From the IMG/VR virus record IMGVR_UViG_3300008267_001162, positions 1 to 28,864 of that record: 28,864 nucleotides of DNA. One strand, written 5' to 3'. Of the stretch, positions 6,692 through 28,864 are shown one piece after another. The position numbers and the translations under genes were made by a program. Under the pieces are notes generated by a model, which was not told where the DNA came from, did not search any database, and was given only the letters and a program-made list of their open reading frames with translations. Source of the stretch: a virus. Position 1 is the first letter of the stretch; each line of letters begins with the position of its first letter.

Positions 6692-6692
6692 A

Positions 6693-6992
6693 TTAAGCGT
6701 TTATTATATTAAAATCTTGAACAATAACAGAGTAATTTGCTGGAATTCGGATTTGAATTCCTTCAGGAATTACTAAAGTACTTTGATTTACTTTATCAGT
6801 ATTAGCAATTGATATTACCCACCATAAAGAACTATTACCATAATATTGTTGAGATAAAATATCAAATCTATCTCCTTGAGTAGTATAAACATAAATATCA
6901 TTTGAAGACAAAGGTACTTCAGGATATCTTGATGTTTGATACACTAAATTTCCTTCAATTTTTGTTTTTGGTATGTTCTGATATCTATTCAT
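6693..6992 (-). CDS. Small LysM-like tail/baseplate protein
   Basis: The 99-residue product has a LysM-like core from about residue 31: YVYTTQGDRFDILSQQYYGN followed by SSLWWVISIAN and then PEGIQIRIPAN. This is the pattern of small LysM proteins found in contractile tails, where the fold acts as a protein-protein clamp between tail or baseplate subunits instead of binding peptidoglycan. T4 gp53 is thought to use such a domain. Its start codon overlaps the stop of the 662-residue baseplate gene by one base, and the hub gene follows after one base, indicating coupled translation. The LysM-like call is good; the specific equivalence to gp53 is only a suggestion. Confidence 0.75.
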   Translation of the reverse strand: MNRYQNIPKTKIEGNLVYQTSRYPEVPLSSNDIYVYTTQGDRFDILSQQYYGNSSLWWVISIANTDKVNQSTLVIPEGIQIRIPANYSVIVQDFNIINA

Positions 6993-9246: not shown

Positions 9247-11832
9247 TTATTGAGTTTTGTAAGCACTGACAGACATTGCCGTACCTACTTTATTACCATC
9301 AAGATAAATATTACCACCAGTTTTAACAACAGTTATAAGTTCTTGTAGTAAAGCTACCATTTCATCTGTTCTACCTAATTTAGTGCCACCAGCACCTACT
9401 ACTGTATCTTCTGGTAGAGTTTTAATTACATAATCTTTAGCAGGTATTTCTCCACCGCTAGGAGCTTTTTCAAAGAATGGTGTAATGGCTTCACCTAATC
9501 CAGCAGCAGCATCAGGGAATAATCCTAATAGATTTTTAAATAACCAATCACCACCCATACTTCCTACTATAGTTCCTACAGGTCCACCAAGTGCTGTACC
9601 TAAAGCACCACCTAAAATACCACCTAAACCACCAGCAACTATTTTACCAACTTGTTGGTTTACTTGTTCTTTTGATAATGGTTTACCGTTTTCATCAACT
9701 GGATTTTCTAATAAACTTTTAATATCATTAATTGCAAAAAACCCAGTTAATAAAGTATTTAATCCTGGAATTTTTTTCAGGGCTGATTTAAAGAATCCAC
9801 CAACACCTCCTGCTGATTTTACTGCTCCTTTTATAGCAGTCATTGGGTTTAATTTACTAAGTAATCCTCCAAAAAATCCACCACCTCCAGACATAGCAGA
9901 TGCTGTACCAGCTTTAATAGCAGATTGAGCAGCAGCACCGTATACTTTTTTACCGGTTTCTTTCATAACAGCACCACCAGCAGCTCCTGCAGCACCACCA
10001 CCTCCACCAAGCATACCTCCTATACCCCCTAATGATTTTCCTAAACCAAGGAAGTTTGCAAATTTAATACCAGCTAATATAAGAGCACCTTTTACAATAC
10101 CATCCATTAATGGTTTTGATGATGCTAAAAATCCGGCAATATCGGCAATTGGAGTTACAATCGATTCAATGATTGGAGATAATTTTTCAAAAGCTGAAAT
10201 AAATTTTTCTTGAGCAGCTGCTAATCTTTCTTGTACTGATTGGCTTTTTAATTGGGATGCTAATTCATCATTGCCTAATTTGGCTAAAAATTCTGCTTCT
10301 TTACCTTGTTTACGTGCTAATTCATACTGTTCTTTAACAGCATCCATATTAGCAACTCCTAAAGTTTGTAAAGCTTGTTGTTCCATAAGCATGTCCGACA
10401 TTTCTTCACGGCTCATACCCATAGCTTTAGCAATAGACTCTTGTTGAAGTCTATTCATTTTACCAAATTTAACAGCATCAACTCCTTGAGCTTTTAACTC
10501 ACGACCTAATCCTACTAAATCATTATTTAAAGCAGCTCTTCTGGCTCCTTCTAAATTTAAATCTCTACCCGTTAATAATTCAGCTTCTAATTCTGCTGAA
10601 ATTGATTCTTCAAAATTAAGTAAAGAACCAGCTATATTATCTAATTTATCTAAACTTGTACCTAATGCTTTAGCTTGGGCTACACTCTTTACTAATGCTT
10701 GTGTACTACCACCTAATGATATTTTAGTAACATTTGAAGTTTTAGCAACTTCATCCATTATTTCTTTGTTACTAAAATTAATACCTAATTGTGCCTTAGT
10801 AACTTTTAATTGACCTAATAGTGAAGTAGTAGCTTGTTTTAAAGATACATTACGAAGTTTACTTAACTTAAGAGATTCATTTAAAATTTCTGGTTCAACC
10901 CCAGCAACATCTCTTAATTGGGTATATGTTTTTAAATCTTCTTCTGATACCTTAGCATTAGCTCCTAATGCTTTGTTAATTTCTAATTGAGACTGAAGTA
11001 ATTTAGATGCTGTTATATTAACATCACCTGAATTAGCTGCTATGCCTTCAAATTCTTTTCTAGTAGCTCTTGCTTCATCATAGGATATACCCATTTGTTT
11101 AGCAAAGTTACCAGTTTCGGTATCAACTTTTTGGAATATGTTATATAACTGTTTAACACCGGCTAAAACCAATGTTATACCAGTTAAAGGGTCCATTAAA
11201 CTAGTTTTTAAACTACTTCCTAATGAACTGAATGCTTTTTTCATTACACCAGCTGATGTGGAACCTTTTTTAGCTGCTTCTAATTGAGCCGCTCCTAAAG
11301 CTTCTTCAGCATCTATTAAATTTCCTAAGACAGGAATTTTAGAAATACCACCTATTAATTTACCAGTAACACCTAATTTTTGATTTATAGAATCGTAAGT
11401 ATTTGCTTGATCTTGTAAAATTTTAGCTTCATTATCTAAAGCTTCATTTATTTCTGTTTCTTTTTTTAATCTATTTTCTGTAGTGATTAACTGTAGATCT
11501 TCTAATTTTTGGAGGTTTTGTTGTAAAGTTAATCTTCTAAGTTGTAAACTTTGTTGTGCCTTATTTATATCAGATAATTTAAGGGCACCTTGATTTAATT
11601 TTAATTGATTTTGAAGCGCAATATCTAAACCTTTAGTTAAATCTGTAACAGATTTTACAGCTGATTTAGCTGTTGCTTTATTTATAGTATTAGATATTCT
11701 ATCAGCTACATCTAGTGTTTCTTCTAATCTTTCATTAATGGCTTCGCTAATCTGAGCACCAATTGATGTAATTTGGTCCCTCAGGAATCCTAATTCTGCA
11801 TTAAGTTTTTGAGTAGAATCTTGTTTAGCCAT
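9247..11832 (-). CDS. 29: Tail tape measure protein
   Basis: An 861-residue protein in the tape measure position, after the gp26-like chaperone and before the baseplate genes. The first 170 residues are charged and helical, typical coiled coil. Hydrophobic Gly/Ala-rich segments lie near residues 565-640 and 720-780 (for example GKIVAGGLGGILGGALG), as expected for the part that enters the membrane at DNA ejection. At about 0.15 nm per residue the tail would be near 130 nm, reasonable for a myovirus. The C-terminus (GGNIYLDGNKVGTAM) resembles the end of many tape measure proteins. The ATG at 11832 follows a TATTTATA box by 11 bases. Gene 29 is the T4 functional equivalent; sequence identity is not claimed. 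Confidence 0.82.
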   Translation of the reverse strand: MAKQDSTQKLNAELGFLRDQITSIGAQISEAINERLEETLDVADRISNTINKATAKSAVKSVTDLTKGLDIALQNQLKLNQGALKLSDINKAQQSLQLRRLTLQQNLQKLEDLQLITTENRLKKETEINEALDNEAKILQDQANTYDSINQKLGVTGKLIGGISKIPVLGNLIDAEEALGAAQLEAAKKGSTSAGVMKKAFSSLGSSLKTSLMDPLTGITLVLAGVKQLYNIFQKVDTETGNFAKQMGISYDEARATRKEFEGIAANSGDVNITASKLLQSQLEINKALGANAKVSEEDLKTYTQLRDVAGVEPEILNESLKLSKLRNVSLKQATTSLLGQLKVTKAQLGINFSNKEIMDEVAKTSNVTKISLGGSTQALVKSVAQAKALGTSLDKLDNIAGSLLNFEESISAELEAELLTGRDLNLEGARRAALNNDLVGLGRELKAQGVDAVKFGKMNRLQQESIAKAMGMSREEMSDMLMEQQALQTLGVANMDAVKEQYELARKQGKEAEFLAKLGNDELASQLKSQSVQERLAAAQEKFISAFEKLSPIIESIVTPIADIAGFLASSKPLMDGIVKGALILAGIKFANFLGLGKSLGGIGGMLGGGGGAAGAAGGAVMKETGKKVYGAAAQSAIKAGTASAMSGGGGFFGGLLSKLNPMTAIKGAVKSAGGVGGFFKSALKKIPGLNTLLTGFFAINDIKSLLENPVDENGKPLSKEQVNQQVGKIVAGGLGGILGGALGTALGGPVGTIVGSMGGDWLFKNLLGLFPDAAAGLGEAITPFFEKAPSGGEIPAKDYVIKTLPEDTVVGAGGTKLGRTDEMVALLQELITVVKTGGNIYLDGNKVGTAMSVSAYKTQ

Positions 11833-15205: not shown

Positions 15206-15454
15206 CTATCGAGAGGTGAATTCACCTGTGGATAAATTTATATTCACATCACCATATTTTTGTTGTAACAAAACACCAATTTCTATTTCGGCCTTTTTAA
15301 TTTGTGATAACTCTTCGATTAATTGTTCTTTTTGAAGTTCAAGATCTTGAATATTAATTTCAATTACCCCAAACTTTTCGACCAATTCTCCTCGTTTATT
15401 ATTTAACTCTTGTAATTTAGATAACTCTTCTGGTGTTAGAACTTTATTTTCCAT
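15206..15454 (-). CDS. Small coiled-coil protein of unknown function
   Basis: The 82-residue product is almost entirely helical with heptad-like spacing of Leu and Ile from about residue 8 to 65 (for example EELSKLQELNNKRGELVEKF and ELQKEQLIEELSQIKKAEIE-type segments), then a short tail YGDVNINLSTGEF. No catalytic motif, signal peptide or cysteine is present. Its start overlaps the region just after the stop of the heptosyltransferase-like gene, so it may be co-translated. It lies directly before the sheath gene, which suggests a role in virion assembly, but the function is unknown. A TATTTATA-like word with one mismatch lies only three bases before its ATG and is not counted as a promoter. 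Confidence 0.65.
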   Translation of the reverse strand: MENKVLTPEELSKLQELNNKRGELVEKFGVIEINIQDLELQKEQLIEELSQIKKAEIEIGVLLQQKYGDVNINLSTGEFTSR

Positions 15455-15455
15455 G

Positions 15456-16667
15456 TTAATAAATATTCAAAATTTTATTAAGAGAATCAATTACTTGAGA
15501 AGGTTCAATTGTTTTTGTGCATTCAAAATGACGAGGAGTATTTTTATGATCTGGGCACCATTCCCAATCTCCTGGGTTTAGCCAATGGCGATTAAAACAT
15601 CCTTTACATGTTTGAGGATTTTTAGGAAATATTCTTTCACAATCTTGCATTTCAGTATATGGATAACTAAATCCTGAAATTAATACTGTTGGTGTGCCTA
15701 TTGCCCATGATAACCAACTCAATCCACTACCTAAACCAATAAATGCTTTAGCATCACGAATATCTACCATTCTATCTTCTAAAGGTACATCAAATCCAGT
15801 TTTATCAATAACTCGTTCTAAAGTACCACCTAATTTAGAATCATGCCATCCATCTCCTAAAGGTTCACCTGTAATCATTGCTACTTTATAACCTTTATCA
15901 TTTAAATAATCAATAACTGTTTGCCATCCTCCTGGATACATCCAATATTTAGCGTGTGCTGACGCATGAGGGGCAATTACAACATAATCTCCATCGATAT
16001 TTGTTTTTTGTTGAGGTAAATTAATTTTTGGTTTTACCTCTCTATATTTCATCCCTAATATTTCAGTTGCTGTTTGTTGTAAAGGATATTTTTTAAAATC
16101 AATAGGAGTCTTATCAAATACTATTTTTTTATCTTTATAAAACCATCCTACACTAAACATAGCATATAAATTAGTTACTTGATCTCCTGGTTTTACAAAT
16201 TGTAATTCAGGGTATTGTCCTTGAAACCATTCATTATGAAATGTAGAGCATACTACTTCACAGTCATTTTCTTTTCTAAATTCATCTATAAGGGGAAACC
16301 ATGCTAATGTATCTCCTAAAGCTGAACTTTCTAAATGAATATAAACTCTTTTACCTCTAGGATTAAATAAATGTTCAAACATTTTATATCCTGTTTCTTT
16401 ATCATATACTTCAATACGCCATTTAACTAAATATTTTATATTAGCACGAGTCCACATATTGTTACTAATGCTAGTTTCGTATAAAACTCGATTAGTTTTA
16501 GTATTAATAAATTTAATAAGATATTCTTTTTCTAAAGGTCCCAAAATTTCTATAAAGGGACCATCTAAAAAGTGAATATTAAAAACATTTTCAGGATCTT
16601 TACTAGGTATCCTTAATATTTCAACATTAGAGTATTCTTTAATTAAAACTTCTTTCATGATTTCCAA
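15456..16667 (-). CDS. TibC/AAH-like protein O-heptosyltransferase (GT9-type)
   Basis: A 403-residue glycosyltransferase with a beta-rich N-terminal domain (about 1-105), then a GT-B fold of the heptosyltransferase type. The motif HLESSALGDTLAWFP puts Asp119 where TibC and related enzymes have their catalytic Asp. VVIAPHASAHAKYWMYPGGW and DAKAFIGLGSGLSWLSWAIG match the nucleotide-sugar domain. The C-terminus has four cysteines, TCKGC (354, 357), WCP (371) and FEC (383), like the iron-binding cysteine set of the autotransporter heptosyltransferases TibC and AAH. Those enzymes add ADP-heptose-derived sugars to Ser side chains of adhesins. It overlaps the methyltransferase gene by 13 bases, the last of four sugar genes. 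The inferred substrate is a phage structural protein, most likely the adjacent Thr/Ser-rich fibre. Sugar donor and target are not shown by sequence. Confidence 0.8.
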   Translation of the reverse strand: MEIMKEVLIKEYSNVEILRIPSKDPENVFNIHFLDGPFIEILGPLEKEYLIKFINTKTNRVLYETSISNNMWTRANIKYLVKWRIEVYDKETGYKMFEHLFNPRGKRVYIHLESSALGDTLAWFPLIDEFRKENDCEVVCSTFHNEWFQGQYPELQFVKPGDQVTNLYAMFSVGWFYKDKKIVFDKTPIDFKKYPLQQTATEILGMKYREVKPKINLPQQKTNIDGDYVVIAPHASAHAKYWMYPGGWQTVIDYLNDKGYKVAMITGEPLGDGWHDSKLGGTLERVIDKTGFDVPLEDRMVDIRDAKAFIGLGSGLSWLSWAIGTPTVLISGFSYPYTEMQDCERIFPKNPQTCKGCFNRHWLNPGDWEWCPDHKNTPRHFECTKTIEPSQVIDSLNKILNIY

Positions 16668-17341
16668 TAATATATAAAACTTTGATAATAACCAAGTGAA
16701 ATAAAATGATTATTAAAACCTTTATCGGCAAAGAATGTAACAAATTTTAATCGTTCTGCATCTCTTTGTTCATCTGTTAAGGTTTCTACATCTTCATGAT
16801 ATTCAAAAAATATCTTTTGTATTTTATCCCACGTGATTTGACTTACATTTTCAAAAACATATTTTTCATGGCCTTCAATATCACATTTTAAGTAATCTAC
16901 TTTTGTAAGGTTGTGTTTTGAAAAAAATTCATCTAATGTAATACATTGTATAGGTTGAGTTTCCCACCAATTAGGCCATCTTGGAATATCAATGTATCCT
17001 TTTTCAGATCCAATAGCTACATTATCTACAATCCAATTATAGTTTTTATTTTTATTTAATGCTTCAAATACTCCTGGATCTGGTTCAACACAATATATTT
17101 TAGAACAACCTTTAGATTCTGCTCTAATAGCAGACATACCAATGTTTGCTCCTAAATCTAAATAAATATCCCCACATTGCATTCCAGGACCATAAGCATT
17201 TAATTCATCATGAATTAAATTTCCATAAGCCATTGATCCTTCCCAACCATATCTTTCTCCGATTTCATTAATGTTGCCGGATGTATCCCATGTTGAGATA
17301 TCAATCATTCGATTATCTTTTGTATAAAATTTAGTGCGCAT
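16655..17341 (-). CDS. FkbM-type SAM-dependent methyltransferase
   Basis: The 228-residue product has the FkbM family layout: SAM-binding motif I at YLDLGANIGMSAIRA (about 60-74), the acidic end of strand 2 at YCVEPDPGVFEAL (83-95), the FkbM motif ITLDEFF (134-140), and VDYLKCDIEGHEKYVFE (148-164) with the conserved D-I-E-G-H-E. Members of this family O-methylate sugars or small molecules. It overlaps the upstream glycosyltransferase by 11 bases and the downstream heptosyltransferase by 13, so the three are translationally coupled. The likely job is to O-methylate a sugar placed by the neighbouring transferases, a cap seen in other surface glycans. The substrate is inferred from context. Confidence 0.85.
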   Translation of the reverse strand: MRTKFYTKDNRMIDISTWDTSGNINEIGERYGWEGSMAYGNLIHDELNAYGPGMQCGDIYLDLGANIGMSAIRAESKGCSKIYCVEPDPGVFEALNKNKNYNWIVDNVAIGSEKGYIDIPRWPNWWETQPIQCITLDEFFSKHNLTKVDYLKCDIEGHEKYVFENVSQITWDKIQKIFFEYHEDVETLTDEQRDAERLKFVTFFADKGFNNHFISLGYYQSFIYYWKS

Positions 17342-18278
17342 ATTCGTTAAATAATTTTAATAAGTCTCTTGAACGGTTTAACCATGATAATTCTTGTGAT
17401 GTGTTTAATGAACGTTTTCTATAATCATCGTATTCATTAATAATTGTATCTAAACCTCGTAACATTTCTTTTAAGTTTCGAGGTGATCTCCATAATCCAT
17501 GAAACGTAGTTTCCATTTCTATCCATCCTAATATTGGCAAACCACAAGCAGCTGCTTCTAATAATGTAAGATTAGGATGTCCGGCTTCCAACTCTGAGGG
17601 ATGAAGAAATATAGTATGTGATGTGTAAAGTTGTCTTAATTGTTCATTTGAGGGTTCCCACATCATTGTTAATTTGGGATAACCTTTAACCCAAGGATTA
17701 TCATTAAGCCAATTTTCATTATTTTTAGGTCCAGCAATTGTAATAGGTAAATTACGAGACATTGCTACTTGTACTCCTAATCCAAATCCTTTTCTATCAT
17801 AAGCATCATATCCACCTAAACCATTATTTGCTAACATAAGCAAATTATGATTTATAGGATAATTTTCATTTGGATAAAAGGAATGTGTATCTACACCGTG
17901 TGAAAAATAATATACATTTGGTAAATCAAAATAATCAACTAAATAACGAGCAGGTACTAATGAAAAAATAGATTTTTCCATTGCCTCTCTATTTTCTTTA
18001 TAATTAAATGAATCTTTTCCATGATGATAAGCATGATGATCATGATGTTGAAAAATGTAAGGAATATCTCTTTCAGCTAACATTAATGCTAGATTAGCTA
18101 CATGAACCATTACAATATCATATTCTCCTTTTTGAATATCAGCACACCATTTAATATCAACTTCGTGTCCTAATTCTTTAAGATTACAAGTAAATTCCCA
18201 TACAATTTTTTCAATAGCTCCCCAAGCTGGAGGAGGGATAGGAATACCGCAACCTGGATTTACTTGGCAAATTTTCAT
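17331..18278 (-). CDS. GT4-like glycosyltransferase
   Basis: A 315-residue GT-B enzyme. The N-terminal domain starts MKICQVNPGCGIPIPPPAWG with the Gly-rich acceptor loop and helix GAIEKIVWEF typical of GT4. The C-terminal donor-binding region has IFLHPSELEAGHPNLTLLEA with Glu231 and Glu241, followed by AAACGLPIL. The spacing between the two Glu is x9 instead of the usual x7. Several His-rich turns (HHDHHAYHH, 79-86) are unusual. The gene starts within the last four bases of the upstream 663-residue transferase (ATGA overlap) and overlaps the methyltransferase gene, so it belongs to the sugar cassette. Donor and acceptor are unknown; a chain-extending role after protein-linked sugar addition is possible. 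Confidence 0.82.
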   Translation of the reverse strand: MKICQVNPGCGIPIPPPAWGAIEKIVWEFTCNLKELGHEVDIKWCADIQKGEYDIVMVHVANLALMLAERDIPYIFQHHDHHAYHHGKDSFNYKENREAMEKSIFSLVPARYLVDYFDLPNVYYFSHGVDTHSFYPNENYPINHNLLMLANNGLGGYDAYDRKGFGLGVQVAMSRNLPITIAGPKNNENWLNDNPWVKGYPKLTMMWEPSNEQLRQLYTSHTIFLHPSELEAGHPNLTLLEAAACGLPILGWIEMETTFHGLWRSPRNLKEMLRGLDTIINEYDDYRKRSLNTSQELSWLNRSRDLLKLFNEYAH

Positions 18279-20266
18279 AAAACTTTTTCTAAAAATCCGT
18301 TTAATTGTAATTTATTATCTATATACTCTTGATTTATAGTAATTACTTTTTTGTTTAAAAGTTTATTATTTTGACAATCATAAAAATCAAAAGTTAATGT
18401 AATTTCTTTTCCATTAAATTGATATAATCTATACCAAGCAAATTTGCGAGTAATATTAATATCTTCACTAAAAATTTCTTCACCTTCTTCTATAGCTTTT
18501 ACAACTAAAAGTCTATTATCTACTTCATTTGAATTTTGATAATAAATGGCAAAATTATTTTCAACATTTGTTGGTAAAACAGTAACATATTCTATACGAG
18601 AAAAATTATTATGTTTAAAATTTTCACTAACTAATTTATCCCAATTTTCTGCTGACTCTACGTGGATTTGATTCCTAAAAGGTTGTAGAGCATAATAAAA
18701 TATATTTTCATATCCATTAGATAAACTACCTACTTTATGTTTTAAATTATCATATTGAGTAGAAGTAGATATAAATTCATGAGTTTGAAAAAATAAATCT
18801 GTTTGAATACCTACAAAAAAAGTACTACTTACTTTACCTTCTGAATATTCTCGTTCATCAACAAATGCTCTTTTTTTATTTAGTCTAAAAGAAACATCGT
18901 TTATAAATTCAGGATTAGTTAAAATATAGTCGTAATTAATAAAAAATAATTTTTTAATTCCTATATTTTTTGCTAATGAAGCCGCATTATAATAATTTGT
19001 ATAAACAGCAGGACCATGGTAAACATCATTATCTTCACCACGTAAAAGAGTAGTTACTTTAAAATGACCATAATCAACCCAACAATGATGGTAAAAATCA
19101 TGTTTAGTTAAAAGATTATTTTTATCATAAACACAATAATCAACTAATTCTTGTAATTCTTCAGGAATAGGAACATGAGAAGTTAATATAATTTTTCTTC
19201 CAGTTTGTTTAAAAGATTCAATACATTCTTTTGTAGAGTCTATTACACTTTGTTGAACAGGATATGTAGAAATTATAACTGCTTCTTCTTCAATATTAAT
19301 TGTTTCTTCTACCTCAAGAGTTTTTTTAATTAATTCACAATTATTTTCAAAATTATCAAATTCAAGATAATTTACACCTTCAAATTTATCAAAATAATTT
19401 TGGTAAACATTTAAGTTATAAATTAAAGTAGGGATTTGATTTGAAATTGCCTCACGAATAACTAAAGGCATAGTTTCTTTATCATTATATGTTCCTCTTG
19501 ATGTAAATAAAAACAAATCCATTGCCTGATAAAAAGCATCTACATCTGTACGTTCATTCCACCATGTTAAATTAGGAGGAGTATCTTGTTCTAATGGTTC
19601 CCAATACCATCTAAAATTGTCTGCTCTATTACCTAAACTATGAAACTCATATTCAGGAAGTGCACGAGCATATTCAAAAAATTCTTTTTGATTTTTACGA
19701 GAAGTGTATAGGCCAACGTGTAATACGTGTCTTTTAGTTGGATCTAACTGTAGTTTACGCAATGCCTCATCACGATTGGGGCGATCAACATATTCAATAG
19801 GATATTCAACTAATACGCTTGGTATACTGATATTTTTGTATTGATTTATCTGCCAATTTGAAACAAACATAAATTTATCTGGGAAGAATTTTTTATGTTC
19901 TATATTAAAAGATGAATCGTGAGATGTTTCTACGATTTTATAATTTCTATCAGTTTTGTATAGTTTTTTAGCTACATCAAAATCCATATAGAATTCAGGA
20001 ATTTCTTCTGTGTGAACTATATCAGGTTGAACACGATTGATTATATCAATCAGTTCCATTTTATTTTCCCCTAATGTAAAAAATTTATCAGTATCAACTA
20101 ATTTTTTAACTTTATTTCTTGTAACTACAAGAACACCACCAGTACAATCAACCCATTCTACAAGATAAATCTCATAGGTATCTTTAAGTAATTCTATTTT
20201 TTTGGTTAAATATTGTGGGAGCCCACCAGTTGATAAATGTGGAGCAATAAATAACAATTTTTGCAT
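18275..20266 (-). CDS. Multidomain glycosyltransferase with extra C-terminal domains
   Basis: A 663-residue protein. Residues 1-310 form a GT4-like GT-B unit: MQKLLFIAPHLSTGGLPQYL, then HVLHVGLYTSRKNQKEFFEY at about 180, and LFLFTSRGTYNDKETMPLVI with REAISNQIPTLIY. Residues about 330-560 form a second domain beginning AVIISTYPVQQSVIDSTKEC, with DFYHHCWVDYGHFKVTTLLR and GIKKLFFINYDYILTNP, which may be a second glycosyltransferase-like (GT-A) domain. The last 100 residues are strand-rich and could bind sugar or protein. It opens the sugar cassette, with a TATTTATA box 14 bases upstream inside an inverted repeat. The enzyme may build a disaccharide or act as both initiating and extending transferase; this is inference. 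Confidence 0.72.
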   Translation of the reverse strand: MQKLLFIAPHLSTGGLPQYLTKKIELLKDTYEIYLVEWVDCTGGVLVVTRNKVKKLVDTDKFFTLGENKMELIDIINRVQPDIVHTEEIPEFYMDFDVAKKLYKTDRNYKIVETSHDSSFNIEHKKFFPDKFMFVSNWQINQYKNISIPSVLVEYPIEYVDRPNRDEALRKLQLDPTKRHVLHVGLYTSRKNQKEFFEYARALPEYEFHSLGNRADNFRWYWEPLEQDTPPNLTWWNERTDVDAFYQAMDLFLFTSRGTYNDKETMPLVIREAISNQIPTLIYNLNVYQNYFDKFEGVNYLEFDNFENNCELIKKTLEVEETINIEEEAVIISTYPVQQSVIDSTKECIESFKQTGRKIILTSHVPIPEELQELVDYCVYDKNNLLTKHDFYHHCWVDYGHFKVTTLLRGEDNDVYHGPAVYTNYYNAASLAKNIGIKKLFFINYDYILTNPEFINDVSFRLNKKRAFVDEREYSEGKVSSTFFVGIQTDLFFQTHEFISTSTQYDNLKHKVGSLSNGYENIFYYALQPFRNQIHVESAENWDKLVSENFKHNNFSRIEYVTVLPTNVENNFAIYYQNSNEVDNRLLVVKAIEEGEEIFSEDINITRKFAWYRLYQFNGKEITLTFDFYDCQNNKLLNKKVITINQEYIDNKLQLNGFLEKVL

Positions 20267-20323: not shown

Positions 20324-20983
20324 TTAATTTATATAAACTTCGTGATATGAACCTGTATATCCTATACTATTTCTAGTAGATTCAGTAGACCCCATAGTAT
20401 AGTCATATTCATTAGGAGCAGGACCTGGGTTTACGGGGAAACCACCTAAAACTAAATTTCCATTAATGTAGTAATCTCCAGTACCTCCAGGATAAAATGG
20501 AGGTGTTGTAATAGTTAATTTCCAATATAGTACCTCAATTAAGGGGATTGATGTTGTAAGTCCTTGGAAAGTTGAAGGACCATAAGTTGTTGTTGAACCT
20601 AATGGTCCTGTGTTTCCTCCTAGATAATTATAAGTTAAATTATCATCATAAAGAGTTACATCAATGTTATCAATATCACCGGCACTTTGATTATCAGCGT
20701 ATAATGTTACATCAAAATCTGGAAGAGTTCCATAAAAGTAAGTTTTATTCCTATAACTACCAAAATTAGGAGATGAATCTACAGGGATTTGAAATATTCT
20801 ATTATTACCTAATGTACTTCCATAAGCACCCCAACCATTAAAACTGTTACCTGATGAACCATTAGGTCCATCAAAATAACTATCACGAGCTAAACGTCCC
20901 CATAAAGTAGCACTTCCTGGGGTACTACCATTTGCTTCAGAATATATGTCACCAAATGATATAGGAGATGAAGGTGTTGCCAT
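20324..20983 (-). CDS. Small Gly/Tyr/Asp-rich structural protein, possible fibre tip or fibre partner
   Basis: The 219-residue product starts MATPSSPISFGDIYSEANGS, an opening like that of many phage tail-associated proteins from Bacteroidota-type phages, and ends with strand-rich Gly/Tyr/Thr sequence (YDYTMGSTESTRNSIGYTGS). It contains a near-repeat, DFDVTLYADNQ and NIDVTLYDDNL, near residues 88-116. No membrane segment, signal peptide or cysteine is present. It begins two bases after the stop of the giant fibre gene, the usual place for a fibre adhesin or fibre-specific chaperone. Either role is possible and neither is proven. Confidence 0.6.
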   Translation of the reverse strand: MATPSSPISFGDIYSEANGSTPGSATLWGRLARDSYFDGPNGSSGNSFNGWGAYGSTLGNNRIFQIPVDSSPNFGSYRNKTYFYGTLPDFDVTLYADNQSAGDIDNIDVTLYDDNLTYNYLGGNTGPLGSTTTYGPSTFQGLTTSIPLIEVLYWKLTITTPPFYPGGTGDYYINGNLVLGGFPVNPGPAPNEYDYTMGSTESTRNSIGYTGSYHEVYIN

Positions 20984-20985
20984 AA

Positions 20986-23900
20986 TTATTTATTTACTTT
21001 AGCTTCTAATTCTTTAACTTTATCATTTAATTCTTTAATAGCTTCAATTAATAGAGCATTTAAGTTACCATATGCTACTGATTTCATACCTGTTCTAGCA
21101 TCTGTATGTACTACTTCTGGAAGTACTACTTCTACTTCTTGAGCAATAACACCCGCGTGTCTGTGTTGATTATCTTCATCACCATCTAATCTTATAAATG
21201 TTACACCAGCTATTTGACTAATTTTATCAAGTGCATTTGGTATTACTTGAATATCACCTTTAATTCTTCTATCAGAGAATGCTTGAATATCATCTGATGC
21301 GTAGATAGATATACCACTTACGTTACCATTTACGTGTAATTTGTAAGATGGAGATGTTGTGCTAATACCTAATCTATCATTTGTATTATCAACGTATAAG
21401 AAGTCGGTACTTTGAACTGTAGTTGCGTTAACAGTGTATATTAAGTAGTTAGGTTGGTTGTTAAATGTACCACCACTAATACCTGAAGTACCACCTGTAG
21501 TAGATAAACCTGATGTTGTAGCTAAACCAGAAGTACCAAAGCTACCGCTTGTACCTGAAGTACCACTTGTTGAACTTAAACCACTTGCACCTGCATTACC
21601 TGATGTACCTGATGAACCTGTTGAACCTGAAGTTCCTGAAGTTCTTGATAAACCAGAAGCACCCGCATTACCTGATGTACCTGATGAACCATTAGTTCCA
21701 CTTGTACCTGATGTACCTGATGCTGAACTTTGACCTCCTGTTCTTGCAGCACCTGTTGTACCTGATGTACCTGATGTACCTGATGTGAAGCTTGGTGTGC
21801 TACCACCTGCAGCTTGTGCGGCACCACTTGTACCTGATGTACCACTAGTACCACTAGTTTGTGATGCTGAACTTGAACCGGCTGTTTGAACAGCACCTGA
21901 AGTACCACTTGTACCACTTGTACCACTTGTTTGTGATGCTGAACTTGTACCTGCAGCTTGAACAGCTCCGTTTGTACCGCTTGTACCTGAAGTACCGCTT
22001 GTTTGTGATGCTGTACTTGTACCTGCATTTGTAGCAGCACCACTTGTACCTGTAGAACCTGAGGTTCCACTAGTACCTGATGTACCACTTGTACCACTTG
22101 CTGTACTTTGACCTGCAGTTCGTGCGGCACCTGTTGTACCTGAAGTACCTGATGTACCTGAAGTTTGGCTTGATGAGCTTGTACCTGCTGATTGAACAGC
22201 TCCTGATGTACCTGATGTACCACTTGTACCTGAAGTTTGTGATAATGAACTTGAACCTGCATTTGCCGCCGCACCACTTGTACCTGTAGAACCTGATGTG
22301 CCACTTGTGCCACTTGTGCCACTTGTACCACTTGCTGTACTTTGACCTCCTGTTCTTGCAGCACCTGTTGTACCTGATGTACCTGATGTACCTGATGTAA
22401 AGCTTGGTGTACTACCACCTGCAGCTTGTGCTGCACCACTTGTACCTGATGTACCACTAGTACCTGAGGTTTGTGATGCTGTACTTGTACCTGCGTTTGC
22501 TGCCGCACCACTTGTACCTGATGAACCATTTGTACCTGAAGTACCTGATGTTGCACTTGCACCACTCACACCTGCGGCACCTGCTATACCTGAAGTACCT
22601 GAAACACCATTTGTGCCTGAAGTACCACTCGTACCTGAAGTACCTGATGCGGTGCTTGTACCAGAGTTTGTAGCTTGACCTGAAGTACCATTTGAACCAG
22701 TTGTTCCGCTTGTTCCGCTTGTTCCGCTAGTACCTGATGTTCTTGATAAACCAGAAGCACCAGCATTACCTGCTGTACCCGCGCTACCACTTGTACCACT
22801 AGTACCGCTTGTACCACTAGTTTGGCTTGCTGAACTTGTACCTGCAGTTCGTGCAGCACCTGATGTACCACTTGTTCCGCTTGTTCCTGAAGTACCTGAT
22901 GCTGTACTTAAGCCTGAAGTTGTAGCTAAACCACTTGTACCGAAACTACCGCTTGTACCTGATGTACCACTTGTTGAACTTATACCGCTTGCACCTGCGT
23001 TACCTGAAGTACCTGTTGAACCATTTGTACCTGATGTACCACTTGTTCCACTAGTACCTGAAGCACCTGCTGCACCTCCAGTACCTGCGCTACCATTTGT
23101 ACCTGATGTACCACTTGTACCTGAAGTTCTTGATAAACCTGATGCACCATCATTACCTGATGTGCCTGTTGAACCTGAAGTTCCTGAAGTACCTGATGTT
23201 CTACTATTTCCAGCAACACCTGCTGTACCTGCTGAACCGTTTGTACCTGAAGTGCCGCTTGTTCCTGAAGTTTGTGAAGCACCTGAAGCACCTGCTGTAC
23301 CCGCTGTACCAGCGCTACCACTTGTACCTGATGTACCGCTAGTACCTGATGTACCACTTGCTGTACTTTGACCTGAAGTTCTTGCTGCACCTGAAGTACC
23401 AGCACTACCGCTTGTACCTGAAGTACCTGCTGTACCTGCACTACCACTAGTACCACTAGTTCCACTTTCACCACTTATACCTGAAGCACCTGTTGCACCT
23501 GAAGTACCATTTGAACCAGTTGTACCTGATGTACCACTCGTACCTGAAGTTCCGCTTGTTGTGCTTAAACCTGAAGTTCTAGCTAAACCACTTGTACCAA
23601 AACTACCGCTAGTACCACTTGTACCACTTGTTGAACTTACACCACTTGCACCAGCATTACCAGATGTACCTGCACTACCATTAGTTCCGCTTGTACCTGA
23701 TGTGCCACTAGTACCTGCAGCACCTGCATTACCTGATGTACCTGCGCTACCATTAGTACCGCTAGTACCACTTGTACCACTTGTTCCTGAAGTTCTACTT
23801 AAACCTGATTGGCCTGCTGTACCTGCGGAACCATTAGTTCCACTTGTACCTGAAGTGCCTGATGTACCTGATGTACTTGAAATATTAGAACTACCTGCTG

Positions 23901-25617
23901 TACCTGCAGAACCATTTGTACCTGAAGTACCTGATGTTCCTGATGTTTGTGATAAACCTGAAGCACCTGCTGTACCTGCTGTACCCGCTGAACCTGCTGT
24001 TCCGCTAGTTCCTGAAGTACCTGATGTTCTGCTATTTCCTGAAATACCTTCTGTACCTGAAGAACCATTTGTTCCTGAAGTACCGCTTGTACCTGATGTT
24101 CTAGAATTACCAGCAGCACCTGCTGTACCTGAAGAACCATTAGTACCTGATGTGCCTGATGTACCTGAAGTACCTGAAGCACCTGAAGTACCACTATTAC
24201 CACCTAAACCGCTTGTACCTACTGAACCTGAGGTTCCTGAAGTACCAGAAGTTGAACTTAATCCTGATTGACCCGCAGCTCCTGAAGTACCTGCTGAACC
24301 ATTAGTTCCGCTAGTACCGCTAGTACCTGCAGTTCTAGATGAACCTGAAGTACCTGCGGTACCATTTGTTCCACTAGTTCCGCTTGTACCAGAAGTACCA
24401 GCTGCGCTTGAATTACCTGAAGTACCTGCAGAACCATTAGTTCCGCTTGTACCACTAGTGCCTGAAGTTCCTGAAGAACCAGCTGCGCCTGAATTTCCTG
24501 AAGTACCTGCAGAACCTGTTGTACCTGAAGTACCTGATGTACCGCTAGTACCTGAAGTTCCTGCAGTTCTAGAAGCACCAGCAGTACCTGCTGTACCTGA
24601 TGAACCTGCTGTACCTGATGAACCTGCTGTACCACTTGTACCTGATGTACCACTTGTTTGTGATGCACCTGAAGAACCAGCAATACCTGTAGTACCTGCT
24701 GTACCCGTTGTACCTGAAGTTCCTGATGTACCGCTTGTTCCACTTGTAGTACTTGAACCTGAGGTTCTAGCTAAACCACTTGTACCAAAGCTACCGCTGG
24801 TACCTGAAGTACCTGAGGTTGAACTTACACCACTTGCACCTGCGTTACCTGAAGTACCCGTGCTACCAGTTGTACCACTAGTTCCTGAAGTACCGCTTGT
24901 ACCACTAGTTTGGCTTGCACCTGATTGACCGGCGGTACCTGTAGAACCTGAAGTACCTGATGTACCACTAGTTTGACTTGCACCTGATTGGCCTGCAGTA
25001 CCTGATGATCCTGTTGTACCACTAGTACCTGATGTACCACTAGTACCTGAAGTTTGGCTTAATCCTGATTGGCCTGCTGTACCTGCAGAACCTGTTGTAC
25101 CACTAGTACCTGATGTACCACTAGTACCTGATGTTCCTGATGTTTGGCTTGCACCTGATTGACCGGCGGTACCTGCAGAACCTGCAGTACCACTAGTACC
25201 ACTAGTTCCTGAAGTTTGTGAAATACCTGATGTACCTGTAGAACCATTTGTTCCACTTGTACCTGAAGTACCTGAAGTTCTAGAAGCACCTGCTGTACCT
25301 GCGGTTCCATTTGTACCTGAAGTACCTGATGTGCCACTTGTACCAGCTGTACCACTATTACCTGCTAAACCACTTGTACCTACTGAACCACTTGTTCCGC
25401 TTGTACCAGAGGTCGAACTTAATGCTGATTGACCTGCAGCGCCTGATGTACCATTTGAACCATTTGTTCCACTTGTACCTGATGTGCCTGAAGTTTGTGA
25501 AGAACCTGATGTTCCTGCGGTGCCATTTGTTCCTGAAGTTCCACTAGTACCTGATGTACCAGCAGCACCTGAGTTACCTGATGTACCATTTGAACCATTT
25601 GTTCCACTTGTACCTGA
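20986..25617 (-). CDS. Giant Gly-Thr-Ser repeat fibre, C-terminal segment with Peptidase S74 chaperone
   Basis: The frame is open for about 1,543 residues from the lesion at 25618 to the stop at 20986. About 1,380 residues are Gly-X-Y triplets, mainly GTS, with almost no Pro. The tail from about 21420 reads NQPNYLIYTVNATTVQSTDF, then YKLHVNGNVSG, and a Peptidase S74 domain: SDRRIKGDI (Ser codon at 21276), HAGVIAQEVEVVLPEVV, and a C-terminal coiled coil KELNDKVKELEAKVNK. S74 domains trimerise phage fibres and then cut themselves off before the Ser, using a Ser-Lys dyad. A GTG at 22569 in the same frame is only a Val inside the repeat, not a start. The segment is the continuation of the frame at 25619-28864 after a 2-base lesion. 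It is most likely a long tail or side fibre and the probable substrate of the neighbouring glycosyltransferases. Confidence 0.85.
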   Translation of the reverse strand, partial: SGTSGTNGSNGTSGNSGAAGTSGTSGTSGTNGTAGTSGSSQTSGTSGTSGTNGSNGTSGAAGQSALSSTSGTSGTSGSVGTSGLAGNSGTAGTSGTSGTSGTNGTAGTAGASRTSGTSGTSGTNGSTGTSGISQTSGTSGTSGTAGSAGTAGQSGASQTSGTSGTSGTSGTSGTTGSAGTAGQSGLSQTSGTSGTSGTSGTTGSSGTAGQSGASQTSGTSGTSGSTGTAGQSGASQTSGTSGTSGTSGTTGSTGTSGNAGASGVSSTSGTSGTSGSFGTSGLARTSGSSTTSGTSGTSGTSGTTGTAGTTGIAGSSGASQTSGTSGTSGTAGSSGTAGSSGTAGTAGASRTAGTSGTSGTSGTSGTTGSAGTSGNSGAAGSSGTSGTSGTSGTNGSAGTSGNSSAAGTSGTSGTSGTNGTAGTSGSSRTAGTSGTSGTNGSAGTSGAAGQSGLSSTSGTSGTSGSVGTSGLGGNSGTSGASGTSGTSGTSGTNGSSGTAGAAGNSRTSGTSGTSGTNGSSGTEGISGNSRTSGTSGTSGTAGSAGTAGTAGASGLSQTSGTSGTSGTNGSAGTAGSSNISSTSGTSGTSGTSGTNGSAGTAGQSGLSRTSGTSGTSGTSGTNGSAGTSGNAGAAGTSGTSGTSGTNGSAGTSGNAGASGVSSTSGTSGTSGSFGTSGLARTSGLSTTSGTSGTSGTSGTTGSNGTSGATGASGISGESGTSGTSGSAGTAGTSGTSGSAGTSGAARTSGQSTASGTSGTSGTSGTSGSAGTAGTAGASGASQTSGTSGTSGTNGSAGTAGVAGNSRTSGTSGTSGSTGTSGNDGASGLSRTSGTSGTSGTNGSAGTGGAAGASGTSGTSGTSGTNGSTGTSGNAGASGISSTSGTSGTSGSFGTSGLATTSGLSTASGTSGTSGTSGTSGAARTAGTSSASQTSGTSGTSGTSGSAGTAGNAGASGLSRTSGTSGTSGTSGTTGSNGTSGQATNSGTSTASGTSGTSGTSGTNGVSGTSGIAGAAGVSGASATSGTSGTNGSSGTSGAAANAGTSTASQTSGTSGTSGTSGAAQAAGGSTPSFTSGTSGTSGTTGAARTGGQSTASGTSGTSGTSGTSGSTGTSGAAANAGSSSLSQTSGTSGTSGTSGAVQSAGTSSSSQTSGTSGTSGTTGAARTAGQSTASGTSGTSGTSGTSGSTGTSGAATNAGTSTASQTSGTSGTSGTNGAVQAAGTSSASQTSGTSGTSGTSGAVQTAGSSSASQTSGTSGTSGTSGAAQAAGGSTPSFTSGTSGTSGTTGAARTGGQSSASGTSGTSGTNGSSGTSGNAGASGLSRTSGTSGSTGSSGTSGNAGASGLSSTSGTSGTSGSFGTSGLATTSGLSTTGGTSGISGGTFNNQPNYLIYTVNATTVQSTDFLYVDNTNDRLGISTTSPSYKLHVNGNVSGISIYASDDIQAFSDRRIKGDIQVIPNALDKISQIAGVTFIRLDGDEDNQHRHAGVIAQEVEVVLPEVVHTDARTGMKSVAYGNLNALLIEAIKELNDKVKELEAKVNK
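21754..22509 (-). repeat. 72/72/90-bp higher-order repeat near the fibre C-terminus
   Basis: Protein units of 24, 24, 30, 24, 24, 30, 24, 24, 24 and 24 residues, each opening GAA or GAV and ending TSGTSGTSGT plus one residue. Typical openings are GAAQAAGGSTPSF, GAVQAAGTSSASQ and GAARTGGQSTASG. All lengths are multiples of three residues, so the Gly-X-Y phase is preserved. The unit order GAAQ-, GAAR- near the start is repeated near the end, indicating block duplication. Confidence 0.85.
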
Positions 25618-28600
25618 GACCAGCAGTACCTGTAGAACCTGTTGTTCCTGATGTGCCTGATGTGCCTGAAGTACCTGATGTTTGACTTAAACCTGAAGTA
25701 CCTGTTGCACCTGATGTACCTGCGGTACCAGTTGTACCTGATGTACCACTTGTACCACTTGTTCCACTTGTTGAGCTTGAACCAGAAGTTCTAGATAAAC
25801 CAGAAGTACCGAAGCTACCACTTGTGCCTGAAGTACCTGAAGTTGAACTTACACCACTTGCTCCCGCATTACCTGAAGTACCTGCTGAACCATTTGTACC
25901 GCTTGTTCCTGATGTTCCGCTTGTTCCTGAAGTACCAGCTGCGCCTGAATTTCCTGAAGTACCTGCTGAGCCATTAGTTCCGCTAGTACCTGAAGTGCCT
26001 GAGGTACCTGAGGTATTAGATGTACCTGAATTTCCTGAAGTACCGTTTGAACCATTAGTACCAGATGTACCTGAAGTACCAGATGTACCAGAAGTTCTAG
26101 AAGCACCAGCATTACCTGCTGTACCTGTAGAACCATTTGTTCCACTTGTACCGCTAGTACCACTTGTTTGTGATGCACCTGAAGAACCAGCGGCACCAGT
26201 AGTACCAGCTGAACCATTTGTGCCACTTGTACCTGAAGTACCACTTGTTTGGCTATTACCTGAGGTACCTGCGCTACCATTTGTACCGCTTGTACCTGAA
26301 GTACCTGATGTTTGAGATTGACCAGAAATACCTGCTGTACCTGCTGAACCGTTTGTACCACTTGTACCCGAAGTGCCTGAAGTGCCTGAAGTGCCACTAT
26401 TACCTGCTAAACCGCTTGTACCTACTGAACCTGAAGTACCGCTTGTACCAGAGGTTGAACTTAATCCTGATTGACCGGCAGCTCCAGCTGTACCATTTGA
26501 GCCGTTTGTTCCTGAAGTACCACTTGTGCCTGATGTTCTAGAAGCACCTGCTGTACCAGTAGTACCATTAGTACCACTTGTACCTGAAGTACCTGATGTA
26601 CCTGCTGCGCCTGAATTTCCTGATGTACCTGAAGAACCATTAGTTCCTGAAGTACCTGATGTACCAGAAGTACCTGCTGCGCCTGAATTTCCTGATGTAC
26701 CTGAAGAACCATTAGTTCCTGAAGTACCTGATGTACCAGAAGTACCTGATGTTCCTGAAGTTTGTGATAAACCTGATTGACCAGCTGTACCTGCGGAACC
26801 TGTTGTTCCTGAAGTTCCGCTTGTACCTGATGTACCACTTGTTTGTGATGCGCCTGAAGAACCAGCAATACCTGATGTACCTGCTGTACCGGCTGTACCA
26901 CTTGTACCTGAAGTACCACTTGTTGTACTTGAACCTGAAGTTCTAGCTAAACCACTTGTACCAAAGCTACCACTTGTACCTGATGTACCTGAAGTTGAAC
27001 TTAAACCACTTGCTCCAGCATTACCCGCGGTACCTGTTGAACCATTTGTACCGCTTGTACCGCTAGTTCCTGAGGTTTGGCTTAAACCTGATTGACCAGC
27101 TGTACCTGCTGAACCTGTTGTGCCGCTAGTACCTGATGTACCTGAAGTACCTGCGGTACTTGATGCGCCTGATTGACCTGCGGTACCTGCTGAACCTGCT
27201 GTTCCACTTGTACCACTAGTTCCTGAAGTTTGTGAAGAACCTGATGTACCTGCGGTTCCATTAGTACCACTTGTACCACTTGTTCCTGATGTACCTGCAG
27301 TTCCAGAAGCACCTGATGTACCTGCACTACCATTTGTACCGCTTGTACCTGATGTTCCTGAGGTACCTGCTGTACCACTATTACCTGCTAATCCTGAGGT
27401 ACCTACTGAACCTGAAGTACCAGAAGTACCTGAGGTTGAACTTAATGCTGATTGACCAGCGGCACCTGCTGTACCTGTAGTACCGTTTGTTCCACTAGTA
27501 CCACTTGTACCTGATGTACCAGCAGTTCTAGAAGCGCCTGATGTTCCTGCGGTACCATTAGTACCACTTGTACCACTTGTACCTGATGTACCAGCAGTAC
27601 CTGAAGCTCCTGCACTACCTGCTGTACCTGCGCTACCATTTGTTCCGCTAGTACCTGAAGTACCTGAAGTTTGGCTTGCACCTGAAGTACCTACGACGCC
27701 TGATGTGCCTGAAGTACCGGATGTACCTGCAGTACCGCTTGTTGTGCTTGAACCTGAAGTTCTAGCTAGACCAGAAGTACCGAAGCTACCACTTGTACCA
27801 CTTGTACCACTTGTTGAACTTAAACCGCTTGCACCTGCGTTACCTGAAGTACCTGCGCTACCATTAGTTCCTGAAGTTCCACTAGTACCTGATGTACCAG
27901 CAGCACCTGCATTACCTGCAGTACCGTTTGAACCTGTTGTTCCTGATGTACCTGATGTACCTGATGTACCTGAAGTTTGGCTTGCGCCTGATTGACCTGC
28001 GGTACCATTTGAACCTGCTGTTCCGCTTGTGCCACTTGTTCCTGAAGTTTGAGATAAACCTGAAGTACCTGTGCTACCATTTGTACCGCTTGTACCTGAA
28101 GTACCTGATGTTCTACTATTTCCTGATTGACCTGCGGTACCTGAAGAACCATTTGTTCCTGAAGTACCACTTGTTCCTGATGTACCTGCTGTACCACTAT
28201 TACCTGCTAATCCTGAGGTACCTACTGAACCACTAGTACCACTAGTTCCAGAAGTTGAACTTAATCCTGATTGTCCAGCAGCACCTGCTGTACCAGCACT
28301 ACCGTTTGTACCTGAAGTACCGCTTGTACCTGATGTTTGTGATGAACCTGAAGTACCTGCTGTACCGTTTGTACCACTCGTACCACTAGTACCTGAAGTA
28401 CCAGCGGCACCAGCATTACCTGAGGTACCAATACTACCGTTAGTACCTGATGTACCACTAGTACCGCTTGTACCTGAGGTTTGTGATATTCCTGATTGAC
28501 CTGCAGTACCATTTGAACCGTTTGTTCCTGAAGTACCTGAAGTACCGCTTGTTTGTGAAGAACCTGATGTTCCTGCAGTACCGTTTGTTCCGCTAGTTCC

Positions 28601-28864
28601 TGATGTACCTGATGTACCTGAGGTTCTTGATAAACCAGCATTACCTGCTGTACCAGCTGAACCGTTTGTACCTGATGTACCTGAAGTACCGCTTGTACCT
28701 GCTGTACCTGAATTTCCGGCTAAACCGCTTGTACCTACAGAACCACTAGTACCACTAGTTCCAGAGGTTGAGCTAAGACCTGATTGGCCGGCTGCACCTG
28801 CTGTACCATTTGAACCATTAGTTCCACTTGTACCTGATGTTCCTGAAGTTTGACTTATACCTGA
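25574..28864 (-). CDS. Giant Gly-Thr-Ser repeat fibre, upstream segment (5' end outside window)
   Basis: The frame enters at the window edge (codon 28864-28862 is TCA) and encodes about 1,082 residues of Gly-X-Y triplets before a frame break near 25618, after which it runs 14 codons out of register to a TAA at 25576-25574. It contains no Met codon and no obvious start, so the N-terminus lies beyond the window. Together with the downstream segment the visible protein is about 2,625 residues. Triplets are mostly GTS with GTN, GTA, GAA, GNA, GQS, GLS and regular non-Gly triplets STS, QTS or RTS. If the break is an error, both segments are one gene; if real, this would be a truncated fibre lacking its S74 chaperone. 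Confidence 0.82.
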   Translation of the reverse strand, partial: SGISQTSGTSGTSGTNGSNGTAGAAGQSGLSSTSGTSGTSGSVGTSGLAGNSGTAGTSGTSGTSGTNGSAGTAGNAGLSRTSGTSGTSGTSGTNGTAGTSGSSQTSGTSGTSGTNGSNGTAGQSGISQTSGTSGTSGTSGTNGSIGTSGNAGAAGTSGTSGTSGTNGTAGTSGSSQTSGTSGTSGTNGSAGTAGAAGQSGLSSTSGTSGTSGSVGTSGLAGNSGTAGTSGTSGTSGTNGSSGTAGQSGNSRTSGTSGTSGTNGSTGTSGLSQTSGTSGTSGTAGSNGTAGQSGASQTSGTSGTSGTSGTTGSNGTAGNAGAAGTSGTSGTSGTNGSAGTSGNAGASGLSSTSGTSGTSGSFGTSGLARTSGSSTTSGTAGTSGTSGTSGVVGTSGASQTSGTSGTSGTNGSAGTAGSAGASGTAGTSGTSGTSGTNGTAGTSGASRTAGTSGTSGTSGTNGTTGTAGAAGQSALSSTSGTSGTSGSVGTSGLAGNSGTAGTSGTSGTSGTNGSAGTSGASGTAGTSGTSGTSGTNGTAGTSGSSQTSGTSGTSGTAGSAGTAGQSGASSTAGTSGTSGTSGTTGSAGTAGQSGLSQTSGTSGTSGTNGSTGTAGNAGASGLSSTSGTSGTSGSFGTSGLARTSGSSTTSGTSGTSGTAGTAGTSGIAGSSGASQTSGTSGTSGTSGTTGSAGTAGQSGLSQTSGTSGTSGTSGTSGTNGSSGTSGNSGAAGTSGTSGTSGTNGSSGTSGNSGAAGTSGTSGTSGTNGTTGTAGASRTSGTSGTSGTNGSNGTAGAAGQSGLSSTSGTSGTSGSVGTSGLAGNSGTSGTSGTSGTSGTNGSAGTAGISGQSQTSGTSGTSGTNGSAGTSGNSQTSGTSGTSGTNGSAGTTGAAGSSGASQTSGTSGTSGTNGSTGTAGNAGASRTSGTSGTSGTSGTNGSNGTSGNSGTSNTSGTSGTSGTSGTNGSAGTSGNSGAAGTSGTSGTSGTSGTNGSAGTSGNAGASGVSSTSGTSGTSGSFGTSGLSRTSGSSSTSGTSGTSGTSGTTGTAGTSGATGTSGLSQTSGTSGTSGTSGTTGSTGTAGLRYKWNKWFKWYIR
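25611..25622 (-). other. Two-base frame lesion in the fibre gene
   Basis: The plus strand reads CCTGAGACCAGCAG where the pattern elsewhere is CCTGAGGTACCAGCAG. Loss of two bases shifts the Gly-X-Y frame. All repeat sequence on either side keeps one constant phase, so this is the only frame break seen in 7.4 kb. Confidence 0.85.

Follow-up and report, generated by a model that had tools for sequence, protein, structure and literature searches.

A candidate phage-encoded protein O-glycosylation cassette linked to a giant Gly-Thr-Ser fibre

The TibC/AAH autotransporter heptosyltransferases (BAHT; TIGR04414; PDB 4RAP and 4RB4), a family marked by heptose transfer from ADP-heptose and by dodecamers, glycosylate Ser, not Thr. 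Residues D110, K230, R286, W305, T226 and P300 of TibC, together with the four Cys of its iron finger, were shown to matter; Pro300 sets the donor stereochemistry and Arg286 reads the adenine (PMC4358343). In the AIDA-I/TibA system, the acceptor is a type V autotransporter whose strand-loop-strand passenger is encoded next to the enzyme. Here we describe a TibC-like gene that, unlike these, neighbours a fibre gene. It lies in a 28,864-nt stretch of viral DNA (IMG/VR record IMGVR_UViG_3300008267_001162, positions 1 to 28,864; hereafter the window), in a cassette of four enzyme genes beside the gene of a giant fibre that is rich in Gly-Thr-Ser (GTS) triplets and ends in a Peptidase_S74 domain. 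From sequence comparisons we infer that the phage very probably uses this cassette to O-glycosylate its own fibre protein.

The TibC-like enzyme, its cassette and the fibre

The TibC-like gene (15456-16658, minus strand) probably starts at the ATG at 16658, which gives 400 residues. This start is used by many relatives and makes the gene overlap the stop codon of FkbM by 4 bp (ATGA); a longer, program-made open reading frame begins at an upstream TTG at 16667 (15456-16667, 403 residues). The protein scored 295 bits against TIGR04414 hepto_Aah_TibC (NCBIfam; cut-off 200; positions 26-374 of 374), and phmmer aligned its residues 24-399 with PDB 4rap at E 3.5e-56. The identity to TibC was 35% (128/361 aligned residues). 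The Asp of the ALGD motif, D119, aligned exactly with the catalytic D110, the donor-binding K240, R299 and W318 with K230, R286 and W305, and C354, C357, C371 and C383 with the iron-finger residues C339, C342, C358 and C370. All of these were invariant in 22 relatives, the iron finger being predicted from sequence. The AlphaFold (AF2) model had a predicted local distance difference test score (pLDDT) of 80, and below 50 in the poorly modelled iron-finger region. It matched TibC with a VIA-align Z of 30.9 (353 residues at 3.6 A, range 26-403), N-terminal beta-barrel included, and the next GT9 structure reached Z 17.6. The family, GT-B fold, N-terminal beta-barrel, catalytic Asp, donor-binding Lys/Arg/Trp and four-Cys iron finger are shared with BAHT, as is the place of the enzyme gene beside that of a repetitive Ser-rich surface protein. 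Sequence and predicted fold both place the 403-residue protein in the TibC family, and the TibC/AAH-like assignment of an earlier, sequence-only reading of this DNA was borne out by the family score, by the aligned Asp and Cys residues and by the structure comparison. No family in PHROGs matched the protein at E 0.001.

The window comes from a T4-like myovirus and encodes a sheath, a tube, a T4-type baseplate, UvsX and gp32-like proteins. On the minus strand, the order of transcription is giant fibre, a 219-residue protein, GT663, a GT4-like enzyme, FkbM, the TibC-like protein, an 82-residue protein and the sheath. GT663 (18275-20266) is a multidomain glycosyltransferase of 663 residues (Pfam PF00534, 5.9e-09). 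It is followed by a GT4-like GT-B glycosyltransferase of 315 residues (17331-18278; PF00534, 4e-06) and by an FkbM-family S-adenosylmethionine (SAM) methyltransferase of 228 residues (16655-17341; PF05050; TIGR01444 79.6 bits, cut-off 37.7). With the TibC-like gene begun at its conserved ATG, each enzyme gene shares 4 to 11 bases with the next. All four overlapping genes had been named by the sequence-only reading, and each was found in place on the minus strand with a family match. The location of the cassette between fibre and sheath genes also held, except that two small genes (20324-20983 and 15206-15454) intervene.

At least 2,624 residues of the fibre, including 728 Gly, 671 Ser, 585 Thr and 6 Pro, are encoded in the window, and its gene leaves the window at the edge. 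Pfam found Collagen (PF01391, 1e-16) and Peptidase_S74 (PF13884, 9.4e-16), and the C-terminal part (20986-25616, minus strand) ends in the latter, an endosialidase-type intramolecular chaperone. Such a C-terminal chaperone is a feature of other self-cleaving trimeric fibres. The N-terminal continuation (25617-28864, minus strand) is in another frame and is open at the window edge; the frame breaks near 25,615 (25600-25620). Because this break falls exactly at the start of L001 and L002, two near-identical independent contigs, it looks like an assembly join inside the repeats, and a programmed frameshift was judged less likely. The more than 2,600 Thr/Ser-rich residues that had been read from the sequence are thus present, but not in one open frame. 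Over the whole fibre (606 triplets), Thr took 71% of the X positions and Ser 61% of the Y positions. In the N-terminal 1,082 residues, 325 of 325 Gly kept a single triplet phase, and apparent breaks of the repeat were triplets with Gln, Ser or Arg for Gly, about every nine triplets. This is a continuous Gly-X-Y register as in collagen-like proteins; a triple helix is only predicted, and other Gly-rich folds are possible. Ten proteins of the cassette and its neighbourhood were scanned, and none had an autotransporter domain.

Co-occurrence of the enzyme with Gly-Thr-Ser proteins

A search of IMG/VR for relatives of the TibC-like protein yielded 198 stretches, and the order S74 fibre, GT663, GT4, FkbM (in some), TibC and sheath recurred in dozens of contigs with enough flank. 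A second sampling by the sheath gene yielded contigs without TibC; where these reached at least 5.5 kb upstream of the sheath, a GTS fibre was likewise missing from that region. After duplicates and one uninformative fragment were removed and record-level searches were taken into account, 37 relatives carried both TibC and a Gly-Thr/Ser-Ser fibre, 8 carried neither and 0 were discordant, which is the co-occurrence that a survey of related contigs had been expected to reveal. On the sheath tree, the two traits changed state 6 times, always jointly, and 4 of these changes were on supported branches. In L108, neither trait was near the sheath, and the 136-kb record held the cassette and a GTS fibre side by side elsewhere. 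Since both were found together away from the sheath, what can be said soundly is that the cassette travels together with the fibre. Moreover, when large TibC records found without using the repeat were checked whole, GTS repeats were present in 12 of 13.

Viral records were also drawn by a DNA pattern for GTSGTSG alone, with charged collagen-like repeats (G-E/D-K) as the control pattern. A TIGR04414 match was found in 18 of the 45 GTS-drawn records and in 0 of the 41 controls (Fisher p 1.3e-6). The GTS fibre lay within about 6 kb of a TibC-containing cluster in 14 of 19 neighbourhoods, namely the 18 ascertained by GTS and that of L108. Furthermore, TibC was fused to GT4 in L301, L308, L309 and LR756501, to the N-terminal domain of GT663 in L302-L304 and L311-L314, and to a glycosyltransferase plus FkbM in L310; by sequence, a TibC fusion exists for every partner enzyme of the cassette in the window. 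The fusion in LR756501, a 735-kb phage (L436 15347-21194), stands beside a large GT663 homologue, and the record contains 1,456 GTS pattern matches. In phage Mel-JY01 (PP395634), the TibC domain (43% identity) is part of a 1,226-residue fusion with a glycosyltransferase domain, beside a (GSS/GTS)n protein.

The phage alignment search also found six contigs of metagenome-assembled genomes (MAGs) with TibC-like genes. One (L154) is a phage contig carrying a sheath gene, and another (L155) has the phage-type GT663-GT4-TibC cassette adjoining a GTS fibre. The contig L158 has a chromosomal setting with LysR, histidine kinase and transporter genes, and its TibC gene lies between two genes (6530-6919 and 9273-9899) for proteins with a lipobox-like N-terminus ahead of GTS/GSS repeats, which contain 33 of the 33 GTS pattern matches of the 3.8-Mb genome. 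When 369 genomes from its bacterial class were scanned with TIGR04414, two true TibC genes scored above the cut-off and all other matches reached at most 36 bits. The second of these two genomes (2.3 Mb) had only nine pattern matches, all in a lipoprotein-like gene beside TibC. Apart from those of L158, the lipoprotein-like GTS/GSS genes beside TibC lie at L444 2084-2422 and L156 3694-4125. Such a neighbour of TibC is present in three MAGs, and in two of them it accounts for the only pattern matches of the genome. GT663, GT4 and FkbM were not nearby in these two-gene pairs, so that TibC is singled out as the enzyme tied to the repeat. The bacterial pairs may represent a minimal, cellular version of the system.

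Proposed modification and alternative explanations

In the mechanism that we propose, the TibC-like enzyme would add the first sugar, in the infected cell, to the Y-position Ser of the Gly-Thr-Ser triplets. This site is proposed because TibC modifies Ser, not Thr (PMC4358343). In GTS-type fibres generally, linked to TibC or not, Ser dominates Y and X varies (Thr, Ser, Asn); the stress that the sequence-only reading laid on Thr as the sugar site is given up for Ser in Y, the constant feature of the fibres. The sugar would probably be a heptose. ADP-heptose is its likeliest donor in view of the conserved adenine-reading Arg (R299) and of one TibC- and GTS-positive record that encodes an ADP-heptose adenylyltransferase domain above the cut-off (G025:C1:144669-145088, L438; TIGR02199, 183 bits). 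A phage-borne ADP-heptose pathway was rejected as a general rule, as single genes were found only in G025 and LR756504. Since most TibC-positive records are without such genes, the donor would mostly have to be supplied by the host. In LR756504, a gene for a SIS_2 (GmhA-like) sugar isomerase was seen 27 kb from TibC.

GT663 and the GT4-like enzyme are proposed to lengthen the first sugar, and the extra glycosyltransferases and FkbM suggest an oligosaccharide. The two glycosyltransferase genes were within 1 kb of each other in 52 of 52 distinct cassettes. The AF2 model of GT663 (pLDDT 80.6) has a GT4-type GT-B domain (~1-321; Z 19 to HepE, GT4), an alpha/beta domain (~325-540) and a C-terminal beta-sandwich (~555-645). 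In its size and its number of strands, the sandwich at residues 555-645 is similar to the beta-barrel at the N-terminus of TibC. For the second half of GT663, no fold match was picked out from a PDB list taken up by the N-terminal domain and BFVD matches that align poorly over the full length. The C-terminal sandwich could be an acceptor-binding domain shared with TibC. FkbM was present in 16 of the 52 cassettes, either as a separate gene between the others or fused to GT663. It was therefore rejected as a core member, and with it the earlier view of O-methylation as part of the core; we propose that it is accessory and would O-methylate, and thereby cap, the glycan in some phages. The mature S74 fibre would form a long rod, free of Pro and similar to a triple helix, under a dense glycan coat. 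Stability without Pro, protection, receptor choice and proteolysis resistance are candidate purposes. Overall, the idea that the cassette glycosylates and O-methylates the fibre gained from the TibC family, the synteny, the co-occurrence, the fusions and the cellular pairs, and lost its emphasis on Thr, its FkbM core and its fixed heptose.

Several observations weigh against this proposal. The known TibC/AAH acceptors are beta-helix autotransporters, of another fold than a collagen-like fibre. In all 22 aligned relatives, the stereoselectivity residue Pro300 is replaced by Gly313 and the phosphate contact Thr226 by Ser236, the latter a conservative change; counted together, they mean that donor specificity may differ, and heptose can no longer be taken as given. 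On the sheath tree, all 4 of the 4 supported independent pairs agreed, but with so few pairs p was 0.125, and most TibC-negative contigs are short. No TibC was found in 27 of the 45 GTS-drawn records within the sequenced part, most of them fragments, so GTS fibres may exist without TibC. The 636-kb phage LR756504 encodes a TibC homologue (L437 19944-21110) in a record without detectable GTS repeats, which limits the expectation that the enzyme goes with Ser/Thr-rich repeats. In L065, L066 and L076, the cassette has as its closest neighbour a Gxx fibre with little Ser and Thr (14-16%), and the GTS fibre of the record lies at a greater distance. The cassette-adjacent fibres at L065 1-4550 and L076 1-2961 are of another collagen type (GPQ, GYT), with Gln-rich Y positions.

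The enzymes might instead act on lipopolysaccharide (LPS) or capsule of the host, for a superinfection block or a serotype change, with the GT9 enzyme serving as an LPS heptosyltransferase and the fibre adjacency reflecting a modular tail region. It is textbook knowledge that many phages carry glycosyltransferase genes for serotype conversion, and a PF01075 (GT9) match is present in the TibC-like protein. However, the protein did not reach the LPS heptosyltransferase cut-offs (RfaQ, 29.2 bits of 467; heptosyltransferase I, 22.1 of 185), and its TibC-specific family score and iron finger set it apart from the ordinary GT9 genes of the 369-genome scan; an LPS heptosyltransferase identity was rejected on these scores, the fold and that scan. 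A host target is also hard to reconcile with co-inheritance with a single fibre type even where both were relocated, with the bacterial pairs, and with a gene set of T4-like replication and tail genes that includes no prophage sign among the window genes. We consider it very unlikely.

It is likewise highly improbable that the cassette targets another virion protein, such as the sheath, the 219-residue protein or the capsid, with the GTS fibre as a correlated but separate trait. The gene of the 219-residue protein, which is rich in Ser, Thr and Gly, immediately precedes the cassette, and that of the sheath closely follows it; in mycobacteriophages, moreover, capsid and tail tube are the proteins that become glycosylated (Freeman et al., 2023, as cited in PMC12619734). 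But the 219-residue gene is missing from many TibC-positive loci, the sheath and its neighbour persist without TibC, and the partner shared by L108, LR756501, Mel-JY01 and the cellular pairs is a GTS protein, not the sheath. A greater, though still small, chance is given to modification of the fibre by the TibC-like protein with a sugar other than heptose, or to a separate pathway for GT663, GT4 and FkbM. The Gly and Ser in place of Pro300 and Thr226, the scarcity of ADP-heptose synthesis genes in TibC-positive phage records and the cellular pairs without the three partners would fit such a case, whereas conservation of the adenine-reading Arg in all relatives, the adenylyltransferase record and the fusions that join the enzymes speak for the proposed mechanism. 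Beyond glycosylation of this fibre, we suggest tentatively, and with less than even confidence, that a general 'glyco-collagen' system, centred on TibC-type enzymes, is shared by many tailed phages, huge phages and some bacteria, in which a sugar on Y-position Ser of Pro-free Gly-Thr/Ser-Ser repeats would replace (hydroxy)proline as the stabilizer of the triple helix.

Neighbouring genes and comparison with known systems

The gene of the 219-residue Ser/Thr/Gly-rich protein (20324-20983, minus strand), between fibre and cassette, is syntenic in L005, L018, L033, L056 and others; in some members of the group it travels with the S74 fibre. The protein had no match in Pfam, NCBIfam or PHROG, and is possibly a minor virion protein. 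The coiled-coil-like 82-residue protein (15206-15454, minus strand) is conserved just before the sheath, and was rejected as a cassette member because its gene stays with the sheath in TibC-negative contigs. The best relatives of the sheath are in Flavobacterium phage immuto (53%) and Microcystis phage Mel-JY01 (51%). At L045 8737-10614, the TibC reading frame is extended at its C-terminal end by about 225 uncharacterized residues, and comparably long frames occur in L046 and L047.

If the proposal is true, the TibC/AAH family, whose known role is the heptosylation of virulence autotransporters, gains a second acceptor class of wholly different fold, and a widespread low-complexity type of phage fibre gains a predicted modification. 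The questions of how such long fibres of Pro-free Gly-Thr-Ser repeats keep their fold and which surface the hosts meet are sharpened and could be addressed by mass spectrometry, with Mel-JY01, an isolated phage, and the minimal bacterial TibC-lipoprotein pairs as possible test systems. Glycan-coated fibres would also bear on the prediction of receptor binding from fibre sequence.

In BclA of the Bacillus exosporium and other collagen-like proteins, a Thr/Ser-rich repeat is the carrier of surface O-glycans; the triplet of BclA is GPT, with Pro at the X and Thr at the Y position. The window fibre, unlike BclA, is almost Pro-free, with Thr in X and Ser in Y, and is phage-borne and accompanied by different enzymes. 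In the open-access literature, we found no report of TibC-type enzymes in phages or of glycosylated Gly-Thr-Ser fibres. A protein of an uncultured Caudovirales phage (UniProt A0A6J5SVC1, a BFVD match) is already named 'Glycosyltransferase Aah/TibC', an annotation that gives neither acceptor nor function. The fused protein of Mel-JY01 is annotated only as 'methyltransferase FkbM', and the sheath of that phage is encoded elsewhere in its genome, unlike in the window. According to PMC12619734, virion glycosylation in mycobacteriophages is likewise phage-encoded; its targets are the capsid and the tail-tube C-termini (Freeman et al., 2023, as cited there), whereas here the predicted target is a tail fibre. 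Compared with BAHT, the window enzyme is phage-encoded, has Pro300 and Thr226 replaced, and is accompanied by extra glycosyltransferases and FkbM, and its predicted acceptor is a collagen-like Gly-X-Y fibre instead of a beta-helix autotransporter.

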